A DNA stretch of 64,000 nt from an uncultured Alphaproteobacteria bacterium (GTDB lineage Bacteria > Pseudomonadota > Alphaproteobacteria > HIMB59), in the NCBI GenBank assembly GCA_902575065.1, contig CACGPU010000001.1, positions 124,001 through 188,000 on the forward strand. Reading direction: 5' to 3'. The notes under the pieces were generated by a model that was not told where the DNA came from, ran no database searches, and saw only the letters and a list, made by a program, of their open reading frames with translations. This document shows, in pieces, positions 22,411 through 47,968 of the stretch. The translations under genes were made by a program, and so were the position numbers. How positions within the stretch are numbered: position 1 is the first letter of the stretch; each line of letters starts with the position of its first letter.

Positions 22411-23121
22411 TTATTTAAAGTATTTAATAAATGAAGGTTTTGTTGAAGCAGATCCTACCAAAACCCCATCTAATTTTTGTAAACTTAAAATTTCTTTTAT
22501 ATTTGATAAATTTACGGAACCACCATATAAAATTTTTATTTTTTTAAAAGAATAATTTTTTAATATTTTGGTCAAAAATTGCAAAATATCATTAATTTCT
22601 GACATTTTTGGTGTTAATCCAGTACCAATTGACCATAAAGGCTCATAAGCTAATATAACTTCGTTATAAATATTCGATTTTTTGAATATTTTATTTATTT
22701 GTTTTTTTAAATAATTTTTAGTTTTTTTTGATTTATAAATATCTACAGGCTCTCCAATACAAACAATGGGTGTAATTTTGTTATGCAGACAAAGATCAGT
22801 TTTTTTTTGTATAATCAAATCTGTTTCACCAAAATTAGACCTAACTTCTGAGTGACCAAGAATACAAAATTTTATCTTATTACTAACTAAATCTTGAATA
22901 TCTATAGATCCTGTAGAAGCACCTTTCCCATGTAAATCTACATTTTGTGCTGCATAGATATTTTTTGGATATCTAGATTTGAGAGTTAGGTTATAAAAGT
23001 TATTAGGACTAGAAATAAGTTTGTATTTCTTTGTACTTGGTAGTTTAGACACTACCTTTGATAAGTTCATACTTTCAGATATATTTAAATATGATTTCCA
23101 ATTAAATATTATATATTTCAT
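22411..23121 (-). CDS. tpiA: Triosephosphate isomerase
   Basis: This glycolytic isomerase interconverts DHAP and glyceraldehyde-3-phosphate. The ORF track starts at 23202, but the family N-terminus begins at ATG 23121 (KYIIFNWKSYLN, with catalytic Asn and Lys), giving 236 residues, slightly short for the family. Catalytic His lies in CILGHSEVR and catalytic Glu in LAYEPLWSIGTG. The phosphate-binding loop is LYGGSV. The corrected start leaves a 31-bp divergent spacer from the PpiD-like gene. Confidence 0.95.
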   Translation of the reverse strand: MKYIIFNWKSYLNISESMNLSKVVSKLPSTKKYKLISSPNNFYNLTLKSRYPKNIYAAQNVDLHGKGASTGSIDIQDLVSNKIKFCILGHSEVRSNFGETDLIIQKKTDLCLHNKITPIVCIGEPVDIYKSKKTKNYLKKQINKIFKKSNIYNEVILAYEPLWSIGTGLTPKMSEINDILQFLTKILKNYSFKKIKILYGGSVNLSNIKEILSLQKLDGVLVGSASTKPSFIKYFK

Positions 23122-23152
23122 TAGGTTAACTGATATCAAAATACTTATAAAA
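23122..23152. promoter_or_regulatory. Divergent spacer between tpiA and the ppiD-trp-lexA-gltA run
   Basis: Only 31 bases separate the two start codons once both are corrected to the family N-termini. This is too short for two full promoters, so at least one promoter must lie inside the opposing coding sequence. AT-rich boxes (tacttataa next to the plus start) are visible but not decisive. Confidence 0.4.
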
Positions 23153-24694
23153 ATGAAAACTAAAAAACTAATAGTTATAATATTTAGTGCTGCACTTGGC
23201 ATAAGTTTCTTATTTATCGGATTTGGATCCTATGTGGGTAAAAATTATGTTTTAAAAGTAGGAGACCAAAAAATATCAACATCTGAATTTTCTAGAGCAT
23301 ACGAAAACTATAAATCAGAAAATGGCCTTTCTAATTTATCAGAACAAGAGGAGTTATTTTCAAAAATTCAATTTACAAATGAATATGTAAATGAACTAGT
23401 TTTTCTTAATTATTTAGATGAAAAAATTAGTATAAGTGATAACTCCAAAAAAGTAATTTTAAAAAAATCATTAAATAATGACGAAATGTTTAGAAATCTA
23501 GATGAAGCATCACTTCAAAATTACTTAAAGGAAATTGAGGGTAATATTTATATTGATTTATTCAATGATAGCCTTGATGCGCAGAAGTTAGTTAATCATG
23601 AAATCAATCCAGATCTTCTTGTTGAGAAAGAATTAAATATATATGAGATTAAGAATGACGATAATCTTCTCAATTACCAATTAGAGGAAGATTTTTACAC
23701 CAATAACGAATTATATGAAATTTCAATAAATGAAATAAGTCTCAAAAATTATATTCAAGAAGAACTTCTAACTGATGACATTATAAATGAATATTATGAG
23801 GCAAATATAAATAAATTTATTGAGCCCAAAAATTATAGCTATGAACAAATTATATTAGATAGTATTTCAAATAAAAATTTTAATGAGCTGAAACAGAGTG
23901 ATGACTCTCAATTCAAATTATTCGAAAAAGTTGATGAAAAATTAATATTACCTCAAATTATTGAAATATTAGAAAAACTTAGCATAGGGGATGAAGGTAA
24001 AAATATTAAAATTGGAGAAAAATACTTTTTTGTAAAACTTTTATCTTTTGAAGAAGAGTATCAAAAGAAGTTAGAGGATATTTATGAGGATATAGTAGCG
24101 ACTTTAACTAAATTAGAAATAGAAAATTTTACAATAACAAATGATGTTAAAAATTTAGATAGCTATAGTACAAATCAAATCTTCTTTAGTAATTCATTTA
24201 ATTTTTTAGAAAATATTCCTGATCAATACAGTTTTATTAACTTTAATCAATCATCTGGAGAAATAAAAAAAGATAATTTCTTATTTCAATTTAATATTCA
24301 AAATATATTTAAAGAAGATCTACCATTAGATTTCAAAGAAAAATTTCTAAATTCTTTTAGTAATTATAAAAAAAATATAGAAATTTCGCATAATGATGAA
24401 TTATTAAAAAAAGCAGGAACAGTAAAGGTCAACTATTTTACTGACTCTCTAACTATTAAAAATAATTTTATTGAGCCAGAGATTTTAGAAAAAATAATTA
24501 TTATTAAAAAAAATCAAAAATTAAAAGTAGTGTTACCAAATGAAGTTATTTATTTAGATATAAATTCAATTGGATCTATTGACTCTTTAAATATAAAACA
24601 AAATATAGTGAATTTAATATATTCAAAAATTATTAAAGAAATAAAAGATACTCTAGATATAGAAGTTGATAACGAACAACTTTTACAACTTTAA
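23153..24694 (+). CDS. PpiD-like periplasmic folding factor (SurA N-terminal-like domain)
   Basis: The track start (23021) lies within tpiA; the likely start is ATG 23153, giving 513 residues. The protein opens MKTKKLIVIIFSAALGISFLFIGFG, a single N-terminal membrane anchor. It is followed by YVLKVGDQKISTSEFSRAYENYK, the SurA/PpiD N-terminal chaperone module. A central region (DDIINEYYEANINKFIEPKNYSYEQI) resembles the approach to a parvulin domain, but the parvulin core is too divergent to confirm. Position between tpiA and trpE matches the peptidylprolyl isomerase gene of other alphaproteobacteria. Isomerase activity is uncertain; a chaperone role at the inner membrane is likely. Confidence 0.8.
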   Translation: MKTKKLIVIIFSAALGISFLFIGFGSYVGKNYVLKVGDQKISTSEFSRAYENYKSENGLSNLSEQEELFSKIQFTNEYVNELVFLNYLDEKISISDNSKKVILKKSLNNDEMFRNLDEASLQNYLKEIEGNIYIDLFNDSLDAQKLVNHEINPDLLVEKELNIYEIKNDDNLLNYQLEEDFYTNNELYEISINEISLKNYIQEELLTDDIINEYYEANINKFIEPKNYSYEQIILDSISNKNFNELKQSDDSQFKLFEKVDEKLILPQIIEILEKLSIGDEGKNIKIGEKYFFVKLLSFEEEYQKKLEDIYEDIVATLTKLEIENFTITNDVKNLDSYSTNQIFFSNSFNFLENIPDQYSFINFNQSSGEIKKDNFLFQFNIQNIFKEDLPLDFKEKFLNSFSNYKKNIEISHNDELLKKAGTVKVNYFTDSLTIKNNFIEPEILEKIIIIKKNQKLKVVLPNEVIYLDINSIGSIDSLNIKQNIVNLIYSKIIKEIKDTLDIEVDNEQLLQL

Positions 24695-42381: not shown

Positions 42382-43091
42382 TATTTGTTTTCATTTATTA
42401 TTGAAAATGAACCTTTTCCATCAATTATTTCAATCATATTAGAACTTTTTAAAATAGAAAATATTATTATGGGCAAAGATCTATCCTTGGCCAAACTTAT
42501 AGCTGTTGCATCCATAACTTTTATATCCTTATTTAAGTAATCTGAATAAGAGATATTAGGTATTTTTTTTGCATCTTTGTTTGTAATAGGATCTTTATCA
42601 TAAATACCGTCTACTTTTGTGCCTTTAAAGATAATATCTGATTTCATTTCTGAGGCCCTTAATACTGCCGCTGTATCAGTTGAAAAAAAGGGATTTCCAG
42701 TTCCTGATGCAAAAATAACAACTCTATTTTTATCTAAATGGCTTGTTGCTTTATTTTTAATATAGGGTTCCGCAACTCTATTGATGCTAATAGCTGTCAT
42801 AACTCTCGACTCTACACCTATTTTTTTTAGGTTGGATTGTAGAGCTAAAGAATTTATCACAGTGCCAAGCATACCCATATAATCTGAAGTAACCCTATCG
42901 ACTACTCCATTTGAAAATGAAGAACCTCTAATAAAATTACCTCCGCCTAATACAATAGAAACTTTAATGTTTTTAGATAAAATTTTTTTTATACTACTAG
43001 AAAGATCATTTAATATATCAAAATCAAATCCTTGCTCATTGGATCCTGCCAAAGATTCACCTGAAATCTTTAGCATGATATTTTTGTACAT
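42381..43091 (-). CDS. pyrH: UMP kinase
   Basis: This amino-acid-kinase-fold enzyme phosphorylates UMP, 236 residues with the start at ATG 43091 (MYKNIMLKISGESLAG). The track start at 43160 lies in tsf and adds 23 unlikely residues. Motifs are KVSIVLGGGNFIRG, DYMGMLGTVINSLALQ, VVIFASGTGNPFFSTDTAAVLRA and KGTKVDGIYDKDP. UTP produced downstream is the substrate of PyrG. A 4-bp gap separates it from tsf. Confidence 0.97.
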   Translation of the reverse strand: MYKNIMLKISGESLAGSNEQGFDFDILNDLSSSIKKILSKNIKVSIVLGGGNFIRGSSFSNGVVDRVTSDYMGMLGTVINSLALQSNLKKIGVESRVMTAISINRVAEPYIKNKATSHLDKNRVVIFASGTGNPFFSTDTAAVLRASEMKSDIIFKGTKVDGIYDKDPITNKDAKKIPNISYSDYLNKDIKVMDATAISLAKDRSLPIIIFSILKSSNMIEIIDGKGSFSIINENK

Positions 43092-43095
43092 AATC

Positions 43096-43968
43096 TTAAA
43101 TAGTATATAAATCCATGGAACTAATGTTAAGTGATATGTTATTGCTCTTAGAAATTTCACCTAAATAAGTACTTACGCTTTTCTTGGGGTCTGTAATTAA
43201 ATTTTGTCCCAAAAGTGTATTTTCTTTTATGAATTTTTTTATCTTTCCTTGAATAATCTGAATTTGTTTATCTTCTGGCACATTATTCATTTGTTTTAAT
43301 ATAATATCTTTCTCATCTTCCAAAACTTTAGGATTTATAGAATTTTCATCTATACCCATAGGCTTCATAGCAGAAACTTGCATTGCAAGCACTTTAAGTT
43401 GATCAACTAATTTAAGAGCTGAGTCTATATCATTAGTTGAGATTTCAACCACAGAGCCTATTTTAGAGCAATGAGAATTATACTTGTTATGAAGATAACT
43501 TATTAATATTGAGTTATTAGATAGGTATTTCTTATATGAAACAATTTGAATATTCTCTCCTACTTTTGAAATTAAATCTGTCAGACAATCTCCTAAAGAT
43601 CTTTGATTAATCATTAAATTTGATAGATCTTCATCAGTTCCATAATTGTTGATATTTTTGTCATCATGAATGGCCTTTGAAAGACTCTCAGCAAAAATCA
43701 AAAAATCGTCATTTTTGGCTACAAAATCAGTTTCACATTTAATTTTGCAGACTGTAAATTCTGTATTAGATAAGTTGTTATAAAAAGACACAACTCCCTC
43801 ATTGGTTTGTCTGTCTTGTTTTTTTTGAGCTTTTAAAATACCTTTTTCTCTTAACCATTTTACAGCAATATCGATATCATTATTATTTTCTAATAAGGCT
43901 TTTTTACAGTCAACAATCCCACTTCCAGTAATGTCTCTTAATTTCTTAATTAATTGCATGGTGCTCAT
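43096..43968 (-). CDS. tsf: Elongation factor Ts
   Basis: This nucleotide-exchange factor for EF-Tu has 290 residues. The N-terminal UBA-like domain reads LIKKLRDITGSGIVDCKKALLENN, followed by DIAVKWLREKGILKAQKK. The core contains CKIKCETDFVAKND, the EF-Tu contact region with the TDFV motif, and QVSAMKPMG. It follows rpsB by 1 bp and is probably covered by the same leader control. Confidence 0.97.
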   Translation of the reverse strand: MSTMQLIKKLRDITGSGIVDCKKALLENNNDIDIAVKWLREKGILKAQKKQDRQTNEGVVSFYNNLSNTEFTVCKIKCETDFVAKNDDFLIFAESLSKAIHDDKNINNYGTDEDLSNLMINQRSLGDCLTDLISKVGENIQIVSYKKYLSNNSILISYLHNKYNSHCSKIGSVVEISTNDIDSALKLVDQLKVLAMQVSAMKPMGIDENSINPKVLEDEKDIILKQMNNVPEDKQIQIIQGKIKKFIKENTLLGQNLITDPKKSVSTYLGEISKSNNISLNISSMDLYTI

Positions 43969-43969
43969 T

Positions 43970-44674
43970 TTAATTTTTTTCTTCGTTCGGAGAGTTTGAG
44001 ATAGTCGATGACAAGACTTTTTTAAAATTGTCTAAAATATATTGTACAGATTTGAAACCATCATCATTAGCTGGTATAGGATAGTCTATGATGTCAGGAT
44101 CACAATTTGTATCAACTATACCAATAATTGGTATTCCTAATTTTTTTGCTTCTAAAACAGCAATGTGCTCTCTATTAGTATCTATAATAAAAATTACATC
44201 AGGAGTTGTCTTCATTTCAACAATGCCCCCAAGAGTTTTATCCAATCTGATTTTCTTTTTTTCTATATCTGATAATTCTTTTTTAGTAAAAACTGTATCA
44301 TCGGAGTTTAATATATTTTCATAATTGTTAAGAGTGCTAATAGAATTTTTAACAGTATTCCAATTAGTAATCATACCCCCTAGCCACCTAAAATTAACAA
44401 AATAGTTATTAGTTTCTTTAGCTATATCCTCAACAATTTCACTATGTTGTTTTTTTGTTGAAACAAATAGAAATTTTTTCTTATTCTTTGAGGATTCATG
44501 TGCAAATTTCAAAGCATTTTCAATTAAAGGTAGTGACTTTCTAAGATCTAAAATATGTGTGCCATTTTTTTCCCCATAAATAAACTTTTCCATTTTTGGG
44601 TTCCATCTTTTTTTGTTATGACCAAAGTGAGATCCATTTTTTAAGAGATCTTCAAGTGATATTTCAATATTCAT
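43970..44674 (-). CDS. rpsB: Small ribosomal subunit protein S2
   Basis: Ribosomal protein S2 of the 30S subunit, 234 residues. Conserved stretches are EDLLKNGSHFGHNKKRWNPKMEKFIYGEKNGTHILDL, NYFVNFRWLGGMITNWNTVK, GGIVEMKTTPDVIFIID and GIPIIGIVDTNCDPD. The start codon is preceded by a strong GGAGG (plus-strand 44679-44683) embedded in a structured leader. It heads the rpsB-tsf-pyrH-frr series. dnaE ends 108 bp upstream on the same strand. Confidence 0.98.
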   Translation of the reverse strand: MNIEISLEDLLKNGSHFGHNKKRWNPKMEKFIYGEKNGTHILDLRKSLPLIENALKFAHESSKNKKKFLFVSTKKQHSEIVEDIAKETNNYFVNFRWLGGMITNWNTVKNSISTLNNYENILNSDDTVFTKKELSDIEKKKIRLDKTLGGIVEMKTTPDVIFIIDTNREHIAVLEAKKLGIPIIGIVDTNCDPDIIDYPIPANDDGFKSVQYILDNFKKVLSSTISNSPNEEKN

Positions 44675-44742
44675 TTTGCCTCCGGTTTAGCTTTAGTTAA
44701 TAGAAAGGAAACCTAGTGGCACCGGATGTCTATTAACCTGTT
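44675..44742 (-). ncRNA. Probable rpsB (S2) leader RNA with stem and pseudoknot
   Basis: The 5' untranslated region of rpsB is unusually GC-rich for this genome. A perfect 9-bp stem (RNA GUUAAUAGA / UCUAUUAAC; plus-strand arms 44696-44704 and 44729-44737) encloses a 24-base loop. Loop bases can pair with the AAACCGGAGG segment just before the start codon in two ways: GGUUU with AAACC (44709-44713 with 44684-44688) or CCGGU with ACCGG (44721-44725 with 44682-44686). Either pairing makes an H-type pseudoknot touching the Shine-Dalgarno site. I recall that a candidate regulatory RNA before the S2 gene was reported from Pelagibacter/marine alphaproteobacteria; membership in that class is inference. 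Likely role: S2 autoregulation. Confidence 0.65.
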
Positions 44743-44782
44743 TTTTTTGATGTTTTAAATGATAAATTCTAATAATCAAGAG

Positions 44783-47700
44783 TTAATTTAAAGAAATATT
44801 TAGTATTTTATTATCATTATGAACCCTTATATTGTTGTAGTCATAAATCTTATCTAAATCTAGCAGTTCCTCATAAGAAATATGTTTAATCTGACTCATT
44901 AAATCATCAGCCTTGATAATGAGTAAATTATCAATATTAACATTATAAAAATCATTTTTAATGGCTGATTTAATTTTGGCTTTTATGTATTGTGCTTGAA
45001 GTGAACTTACGTCGAATTTATCATCAAAAAGTCTTAAATCAAAAAAACCACTTTCATTAATTACATTTAAGAGAATGTATCTTTTACCATTTCTAGTAGT
45101 TTTATATTGTGCTTTTACAACATAAAAATAAAAATCCTCTAAGAATTCAAGTTTACTATTAATTTTTACTTTAAAAGATGATTGATTAAGATTTGTTAGT
45201 ATTTTTGTTTGTTTTTTTTGAGAGTAAAGAAATCCATAGCTTTCAAATTCAGCTTTTATAGGATCAATTGTAGTATAGCTTTTTTTTAAAAAAAACTGAT
45301 CATCAGATAAGTCCTTAAATAATGTTGCTCCAGATTTTTTCTGTATAATATTTTCTACATTAGCATATAGTTTTGAGATACTTGTATGAAGTGAATTAAA
45401 AGAATTTGATAAGATAAGTTTTTCTATTTGTCTTTTATTCAATACAGATCTAGATAATCTATCATTAAAATCTGACAGAGATTTAAATCTACCATTTTTG
45501 TTTCTTTCGATTACTAATTCTTTCATAGGCTCCTCACCTACCCCCTTAAGTGCAGCTAAACCATAAATAATCTTATCTTCATGTACAATAAATTTATAAT
45601 CTGAATAATTTATATCAGGCGGTAATATTTTTAAATCTAGATCATACATTTCATTTATTATTACAAAAATTTTGTCAGTATTATTCAATGAATTATTTAA
45701 AAGCTCACAATAGAATTCTAATGGATAATTTGCTTTTAAATATGCTGTATAATAAGTAATAAAAGCGTATGCAGCTGCATGACTTTTGTTAAATCCATAT
45801 TCTGCAAATTTTTCAATCAAGGAAAATAGTTTCTCAGCATCTTTAGATCTAACCTTTTTATTTACAGCTCCTCTAATAAAATTATCCTTTTGGTTCATTA
45901 ATTCAGATTTAATTTTTTTACCAATAGCTCTTCTCAATAAGTCTGCTTGACCAAGAGAATATCCTGAAATTACTTGTGCTATTTTCATTATTTGTTCTTG
46001 ATAAACAATTATTCCATAAGTTTCTCTCAAAATTGGTTCAAGTAAAGGATGGTCATATATTATTTTTTCCTCACCTTTTTTTCTTTTAATAAAGCTATCA
46101 ATAAATTGCATTGGACCAGGCCTATTCAAAGCTAAAACCGCTATAACTTCCTCTAAGCTTGTTGGTTTGAGTTTAATCAAGGTGTCAACCATTGCAGCAC
46201 TTTCAACTTGAAATACTCCACATGTATAGCCATCACTTAATAATTTAAAGGTTTTTTCATCGTTGAAAGGAATTTCATTTAAGTCAATAGAAATTTGATT
46301 TTTAGATTTTATCAATTTAAGAGTCTCATCAATTATGGTGAGATTAGCTAGGCCAAGAAAGTCAAATTTTAATAAACCTGCTTTTTCACAATCTTTCATA
46401 TTGTATTGCGTAGCCATTATTTCTGAGTTATCATCTTTGAATAAAGGAATATTTCCATAAAGCTTATCCGAAGAGATGATAATTCCTGCAGCATGTGTAG
46501 ATACATTTCTTAATGCGCCTTCCATTGATTCTGCTTTATCCATCATAGGAGAGTCAGCTAAATCACCTAATTGATCAGAATGATTAGCTTTCAATTCACT
46601 AATACTTAAAGGATGGACTGGATTATAAGGTATTTTATTTACCATTCTCTCTACTTCGGAATACGGAACACCCTCTACTCTACCGATATCCTTTAATATT
46701 CCCCTTGAGATCATCGAACCAAAAGTAATTATTTGTGCAACATTTTGATAACCATACTTTTTTTGCACATACTCAATAACTTCATCTCTTCTTGATTTAC
46801 AAAAATCAATATCAAAATCAGGCATTGACACCCTATCAGGGTTTAAAAATCTTTCAAAAAGTAAACCGTATTGAATTGGATCTACATCTGTGATTAATAA
46901 AGACCATGCAACAATAGATCCAGCTCCTGATCCTCTTCCTGGGCCAACAGGAATTGAATTTGATTTAGCCCATCTGATAAAATCACTAACTATAAGAAAA
47001 TATCCAGAGAATTTCATTTTTATAATAACATTTAATTCATATTCTAGACGATCCCTATAAATTTTAGACTGACTGTTAAAATCCTCAATCGTTCTGTTTG
47101 CAAGTATTTTTTTTAATCTTAAATCTAAGCCATTTCTAGATTGTTGAACAATTTCTTTATCTTCATCAGTGTCAAAATCAGATTTAAAATTTGGCAATGT
47201 AATAGGTTTTTCTTCAATTAGAAAATTAATTTTATTTGCTATTAAATTTGAATTTTGTATAAGTGGTTTTAGGTTATCATTTTCATGATAATTTTTAGTT
47301 AAAGAATAATTATTATTTAGATTAAATGAAGTATTTTGTAAATATTCACCATTCTTCAAACAATGAAGTATTTTAATTGCATCGTAATCTTTATCTTGTT
47401 TATAAAAGCTAAATGAAGATAAAAAGGAATTAATTTCAGATTTTTTAGATATCTCATTTAATGGTTTATTATCTAGGTTTTCATCAAATTCAAAAAAAAC
47501 ATCATTTTTAAAAAATTTTTTTAAAGCAGCGATTTCATCTAAAATAATTTTTAAATTATTTTTATTGATATTCAAATCTTGAAAATAACTAAATAACCCA
47601 CCTAAGATTAAAATGTTACCTTCAGAAAAATTATTAATATTATCTAAAGATAAATAAAATTCATTTTCAGTATTTATTTTTGTAGATAGTATATTGAGAT

Positions 47701-47968
47701 TTTTAAAACCTTTATCATTTTTACACAGAAAGGTAAGTCTTGATTTGTGTTTTAATTTTGAAATAAAATCAACATCTAATCCTATAATCGGTTGAATACC
47801 CTTATTTTTACATTTAGCTGAAAATTCAAGAGCACCTGATAATAATTTGTAGTCTGTTAATGCTATTGCAGGTAATTTTGCTCTCTCAGCAAAATTTACA
47901 AGATCCTCAATTTTAATATTGGACTCGCAAATAGAATAATTTGAATAATTTCTCAGAGGTATTAGCAT
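44783..47968 (-). CDS. dnaE: DNA polymerase III alpha subunit DnaE
   Basis: This is the replicative polymerase subunit, 1061 residues, about 100 shorter than E. coli DnaE. The polymerase core has VGPGRGSGAGSIVAWSL, MPDFDIDFCKSRRDEVIEY with the catalytic Asp residues, and LNRPGPMQFIDSFIKRKKGEE. YGFNKSHAAAYAFITYYTAYLKA lies in the fingers and ILPPDINYSDYKF begins the HhH region. The N-terminal PHP domain lacks the usual His residues (LIPLRNYSNYS instead of xHLRVHSxYS), so metal-dependent PHP activity is unlikely. The tail is shortened after an OB-like part. It overlaps lolD by 7 bp. Confidence 0.97.
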   Translation of the reverse strand: MLIPLRNYSNYSICESNIKIEDLVNFAERAKLPAIALTDYKLLSGALEFSAKCKNKGIQPIIGLDVDFISKLKHKSRLTFLCKNDKGFKNLNILSTKINTENEFYLSLDNINNFSEGNILILGGLFSYFQDLNINKNNLKIILDEIAALKKFFKNDVFFEFDENLDNKPLNEISKKSEINSFLSSFSFYKQDKDYDAIKILHCLKNGEYLQNTSFNLNNNYSLTKNYHENDNLKPLIQNSNLIANKINFLIEEKPITLPNFKSDFDTDEDKEIVQQSRNGLDLRLKKILANRTIEDFNSQSKIYRDRLEYELNVIIKMKFSGYFLIVSDFIRWAKSNSIPVGPGRGSGAGSIVAWSLLITDVDPIQYGLLFERFLNPDRVSMPDFDIDFCKSRRDEVIEYVQKKYGYQNVAQIITFGSMISRGILKDIGRVEGVPYSEVERMVNKIPYNPVHPLSISELKANHSDQLGDLADSPMMDKAESMEGALRNVSTHAAGIIISSDKLYGNIPLFKDDNSEIMATQYNMKDCEKAGLLKFDFLGLANLTIIDETLKLIKSKNQISIDLNEIPFNDEKTFKLLSDGYTCGVFQVESAAMVDTLIKLKPTSLEEVIAVLALNRPGPMQFIDSFIKRKKGEEKIIYDHPLLEPILRETYGIIVYQEQIMKIAQVISGYSLGQADLLRRAIGKKIKSELMNQKDNFIRGAVNKKVRSKDAEKLFSLIEKFAEYGFNKSHAAAYAFITYYTAYLKANYPLEFYCELLNNSLNNTDKIFVIINEMYDLDLKILPPDINYSDYKFIVHEDKIIYGLAALKGVGEEPMKELVIERNKNGRFKSLSDFNDRLSRSVLNKRQIEKLILSNSFNSLHTSISKLYANVENIIQKKSGATLFKDLSDDQFFLKKSYTTIDPIKAEFESYGFLYSQKKQTKILTNLNQSSFKVKINSKLEFLEDFYFYVVKAQYKTTRNGKRYILLNVINESGFFDLRLFDDKFDVSSLQAQYIKAKIKSAIKNDFYNVNIDNLLIIKADDLMSQIKHISYEELLDLDKIYDYNNIRVHNDNKILNISLN

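Follow-up and report, generated by a model that had tools for sequence, protein, structure and literature searches.

The rpsB leader in the window (the whole stretch of DNA analyzed, 64,000 nucleotides of a 1.25-Mb genome probably from the HIMB59-type clade, also named AEGEAN-169 or SAR11 subclade V; PMC10308909) contains an RNA element which, judging from sequence comparison, almost certainly belongs to the known family of the rpsB motif (S2 leader). By homology, this element very probably acts as a feedback (autoregulatory) operator through which ribosomal protein S2 would control rpsB-tsf. The kind of element is already known (rpsB motif, 2009); what is notable here is a layout in which the Shine-Dalgarno (SD) sequence and a pseudoknot are fused, together with a gap in Rfam coverage.

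The gene order on the minus strand is dnaE, a 108-nt gap (44675-44782), rpsB, tsf, and a gene for an amino acid kinase in the position of pyrH. The gene dnaE (44783-47968; Pfam PF07733) precedes the rpsB leader in 27/27 genomes of the genus; rpsB, encoding ribosomal protein S2 (43970-44674; PF00318, E = 1.7e-82), is followed directly at its 3' side by tsf, encoding elongation factor Ts (43096-43968; PF00889, E = 1e-42), all of them on the minus strand. The element lies on the same strand and immediately 5' of rpsB, whose start is at 44674. The first-pass annotation had counted this region among the few real intergenic spaces, and this was borne out: open reading frames of at least 100 amino acids cover about 97% of the window, and a crude gene call leaves five gaps of at least 60 nt, at least one of which is an artifact of that call. 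The mechanical start of the frame in the pyrH position (region 43091-43160, minus strand) is a GTG located within tsf, an internal ATG near 43091 (MYKNIMLKISGESL) being the likelier start. Elsewhere in the window, a plus-strand frame with a TTG start (23021-24694) overlaps a divergent, triosephosphate isomerase-like frame (22411-23202, minus strand) at 23021-23202, so the true start of the plus-strand gene is probably farther downstream. No tRNA or tmRNA genes were found in the 64-kb window, nor any Rfam match at the gathering threshold.

The element consists of a stem, P1, and a pseudoknot (all coordinates of the leader refer to the minus strand). The 5' strand of P1 (GGUUAAUAGA, 44729-44738) pairs with the 3' strand (UCUAUUAACU, 44695-44704) through 9 perfect base pairs (44729-44737 with 44696-44704) plus a terminal G·U (44738:44695), closing a loop of 24 nt; the 9-bp stem and its loop had been placed correctly in the first-pass annotation. 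Within the loop, the hexamer UCCGGU (44721-44726) is the exact complement of ACCGGA (44681-44686), just 3' of P1, and the resulting 6-bp duplex has a calculated energy of -8.5 kcal/mol. The linker between P1 and the pseudoknot (AAAGCUAA, 44687-44694) has the same length as its counterpart in the rest of the class, GAGGNNNA. ACCGGA runs into the SD sequence GGAGG (44679-44683), with which it has three bases in common. This GGAGG, which is kept in the genus, is a proper full SD sequence, since the 3' end of the 16S rRNA of the same genome reads GGATCACCTCC. A P2 stem is absent, and a short P3 hairpin of 3 bp would be possible between GCC (44718-44720) and GGU (44711-44713), with 96% of the cells paired and no compensatory change, which makes it a weak candidate.

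Two loop segments had been proposed to pair with the SD region. The CCGGU segment withstood the comparison, being part of the exact complement described above and covarying across the class. The GGUUU segment did not; the GGUUU:AAACC pairing was rejected because its outer pair is present in only 6/27 genus members, three members lacking the GG altogether.

Upstream of the element, CTTGAT (44775-44780), which abuts the dnaE stop codon, and TAAAAC (44752-44757) are separated by a 17-nt spacer and resemble a -35 and a -10 element. The CTTGAT hexamer is conserved in the genus, and the block CTTGATTATTnnnnTTTATnCTTTAAAAC around TAAAAC is conserved in 21 close genus members. The whole arrangement, CTTGAT-N17-TAAAAC (44752-44780), recurs in close members, with looser forms in distant ones. 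Its position suggests a candidate rpsB promoter that would give a leader of about 70 nt; because it does not stand out in a promoter consensus scan, this promoter is one that we only infer.

The leader stands out by its composition, as had been noted before, the GC content being 41% at 44675-44742 and 27% in the window as a whole. A GC content at least as high occurs in 3.9% of the 68-nt windows. By contrast, its folding energy is unremarkable (minimum free energy of -17.0, z = -0.59), and the significance of the structure therefore rests on conservation and covariation.

For that purpose, rpsB leaders were collected from 27 genomes of the genus (which includes single-cell genomes as well as a single-contig genome of 1,410,127 bp), 21 of the sister family, 86 from elsewhere in the class, and Escherichia coli. 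In the alignment of the 27 genus leaders, 8 of the 10 P1 pairs showed changes on both sides. Taken jointly, P1, the pseudoknot, and P3 had 97.4% of their cells paired in the genus, a level that none of 500 shuffles equaled (0/500), while shifted controls reached 25 to 51%. The pseudoknot was 100% paired and nearly invariant, varying solely by G·U, so that no covarying pseudoknot pairs were present among these 27 leaders.

Across the class, MAFFT was used without structural information to align 37 leaders, among them that of E. coli, none of which belongs to the order of the window. Two-sided changes were observed in 8/8 P1 pairs, a figure somewhat favored by the fact that the leaders were chosen partly for a recognizable P1, and in 4/6 pseudoknot pairs, pseudoknot pairing having been no criterion of selection. 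At least six compensated forms of the pseudoknot, along with G·U intermediates, were found: UCUGGU/ACCAGA, UCCAGU/ACUGGA, CUCAGU/ACUGAG, UCCGAU/AUCGGA, and UUCGGU/ACCGAA in separate families, and UGGGGU/ACCCCA in E. coli (unrelated pairings at a few loci, such as L121 and L122, were left out of this count). When the 3' strands of 14 variant genomes were swapped, the 7 exact matches of loops with their own strands compared with a mean of 1.6, and none of 5,000 swaps scored as high (0/5000); on inspection, several of the other seven variants also fit once a shift of one base or a G·U pair is allowed. The alignment of related rpsB 5' regions called for in the first-pass annotation thus revealed covariation in both helices, for P1 in genus and class and for the pseudoknot class-wide, and the comparison shows that the predicted P1 stem and UCCGGU-ACCGGA pseudoknot are maintained by selection.

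Membership in the family was assessed with a covariance model, R1, built from the same 37 leaders outside the order and using the P1 pairs only. It matched the window at 44680-44742 on the minus strand with 26.9 bits (E = 2.7e-5), and this was its sole match in the genome (E = 5.3e-4 genome-wide). R1 also matched all 16 leaders of the order that were tested, 3 of them only at E = 0.02 to 0.09, as well as two Pelagibacteraceae and two cyanobacterial leaders. Among the genomes of the order, many of which are incomplete, 82/107 gave matches, about 80 of the 82 being genuine. In four related genomes, further R1 matches of 21 to 22 bits fell within the lepA coding sequence (L218, 1004-1072, plus strand; L219, 1002-1070, L220, 1001-1069, and L221, 1001-1069, minus strand), and in two of the four this was the only match. 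A second copy of the element in these genomes was considered and rejected, the lepA matches being due to chance; lepA of the sister family contains GTGGAGGTTTAACCGATA or close variants, which resemble the rpsB motif in its 3' half. Given chance matches at 21 to 22 bits, the 26.9 bits of the window are convincing in combination with the position of the match and not by score alone.

The first-pass annotation had also proposed a search with an Rfam covariance model for the S2 leader, the lack of a covariance-model hit counting against the idea. With Rfam, the search came back empty: neither RF01815 nor RF00127 matched the window, and nothing relevant appeared in the region at E values up to 10. 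Similarly, neither model matched at E values up to 1 any of eight leaders in which the motif is plainly present (L001, L020, L024, L028, L035, L189, L197, and L110), which come from this order, two Pelagibacteraceae genomes, and another alphaproteobacterial family. The two Rfam models are too narrow, and the rule would mislead if applied with Rfam alone, whereas the independent R1, which includes no leader of the order, has the element as its single match in the genome.

The candidate S2 leader from Pelagibacter comparative genomics that the first-pass annotation had mentioned is of the same family, namely, the rpsB motif, which Meyer et al. (2009, PMC2704228) described from "Candidatus Pelagibacter ubique", among other bacteria. 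As in the published motif, the element of the window lies 5' of rpsB, after dnaE as in P. ubique, and combines a P1 stem with a pseudoknot in which the loop junction pairs with the extension 3' of P1 (6 bp in the window, about 5 bp as published). The published description lets P2 and P3 vary or be absent, which leaves room for the missing P2 and the weak 3-bp P3 candidate of the window. It differs in having AAAG instead of GAGG after P1, in lacking P2, and in the overlap of the SD sequence with the pseudoknot 3' strand, which the rpsB section of that paper does not mention. Rfam RF01815 (rpsB sRNA, alphaproteobacterial) represents the same element 5' of rpsB and matches other Alphaproteobacteria but misses the window and its order even at relaxed thresholds. 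For its part, the E. coli rpsB-tsf operator (Rfam RF00127, t44 RNA) has the same architecture as the window element, and its pseudoknot is a compensated version of the one found here. In E. coli, S2 represses rpsB-tsf in vivo via this leader, as reviewed in PMC10931766.

The most conspicuous difference between the order and the rest of the class concerned the SD sequence. In the genus, the pseudoknot 3' strand and the SD sequence are fused (ACCGGAGG) and are followed, usually after 4 nt, by AUG. Among the 47 parsed leaders of the order, the distance from pseudoknot to AUG was 6 to 11 nt, the SD sequence overlapped the pseudoknot in 46, and no separate downstream SD sequence followed the pseudoknot. 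By comparison, the median distance was 15 nt among 75 other leaders, of which 65 had a separate downstream SD sequence and only 7 showed overlap. The overlap is not unique to the order, since the Pelagibacteraceae leader L197 has ACCGGAG with AUG close behind. In place of the GAGG that is conserved after P1 elsewhere, most of the genus has AAAG, with the length of the linker constant.

These features suggest how the operator might work. By analogy with E. coli, free S2 in excess over 30S subunits, perhaps together with S1, would bind the leader fold, and bound S2 would repress rpsB and, along with it, tsf. As the anatomy of the leader suggests, the bound fold would block access of the 30S subunit to the SD sequence directly, because the only SD sequence available begins with three bases that belong to the pseudoknot 3' strand. 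It is this overlap that makes SD occlusion plausible here. In E. coli the SD sequence lies beyond the pseudoknot, and the ribosome-binding site (SD sequence and start codon) is reported to be outside the S2 operator (PMC10931766); therefore, the family is not known to act by occlusion, and this mechanism cannot simply be transferred from E. coli. The complete proposal, which joins family membership, S2 binding and repression, and direct occlusion of the SD sequence, seems to us probable, with appreciable room for doubt.

A rather unlikely alternative, although the best of those considered, is that S2 uses the element as an operator without covering the SD sequence. Repression would then come about through entrapment of a 30S complex by S2 and S1, or through their blocking of ribosome standby; the overlap would have arisen from shortening of the leader in a compact genome. 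The location of the E. coli SD sequence and start codon agrees with this, as does the need for S1 for full S2 repression in that organism, where the mechanism is stated to be unclear, with an operator that leaves the SD sequence free (PMC10931766); and since a separate SD sequence stands beyond the pseudoknot in 65/75 leaders elsewhere, the shared mechanism need not involve it. On the other hand, the overlap is nearly universal in the order (46/47), and a 6-bp pseudoknot of -8.5 kcal/mol would compete with 16S rRNA pairing for the same bases, both of which argue against this alternative.

It is quite improbable that S2 is not the ligand in this clade and that the conserved fold serves instead to enhance translation, as a stability element, or as the site of another regulator. 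S2 binding here is predicted by homology, and AAAG in place of GAGG after P1 in the genus could mean altered recognition, but the element occurs solely before rpsB in the genome, the pseudoknot and the length of the linker are kept, and the homologous leader of E. coli responds to S2 (PMC10931766). Finally, the idea that the leader has no function as RNA, its complementarity being due to chance or to a dnaE terminator, with which the ordinary folding energy (z = -0.59) would agree, is effectively refuted by the covariation, besides the independent R1 match and the lack of any terminator-like site or U-run after the P1 stem.

The S2 leaders of an entire order of abundant marine bacteria escape both Rfam models and therefore go unannotated. 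With regard to the control of rpsB by S2, the lineage may possess a minimal operator with its sole SD sequence fused to the pseudoknot, so that S2 would exclude the ribosome directly, by simple competition, in place of whatever indirect mechanism operates in E. coli and most Alphaproteobacteria; we put this forward tentatively, at somewhat less than an even chance. Because it is natural and compact (about 70 nt) and has its SD sequence inside the pseudoknot, such a leader would offer a tractable test of pseudoknot formation as the switch.
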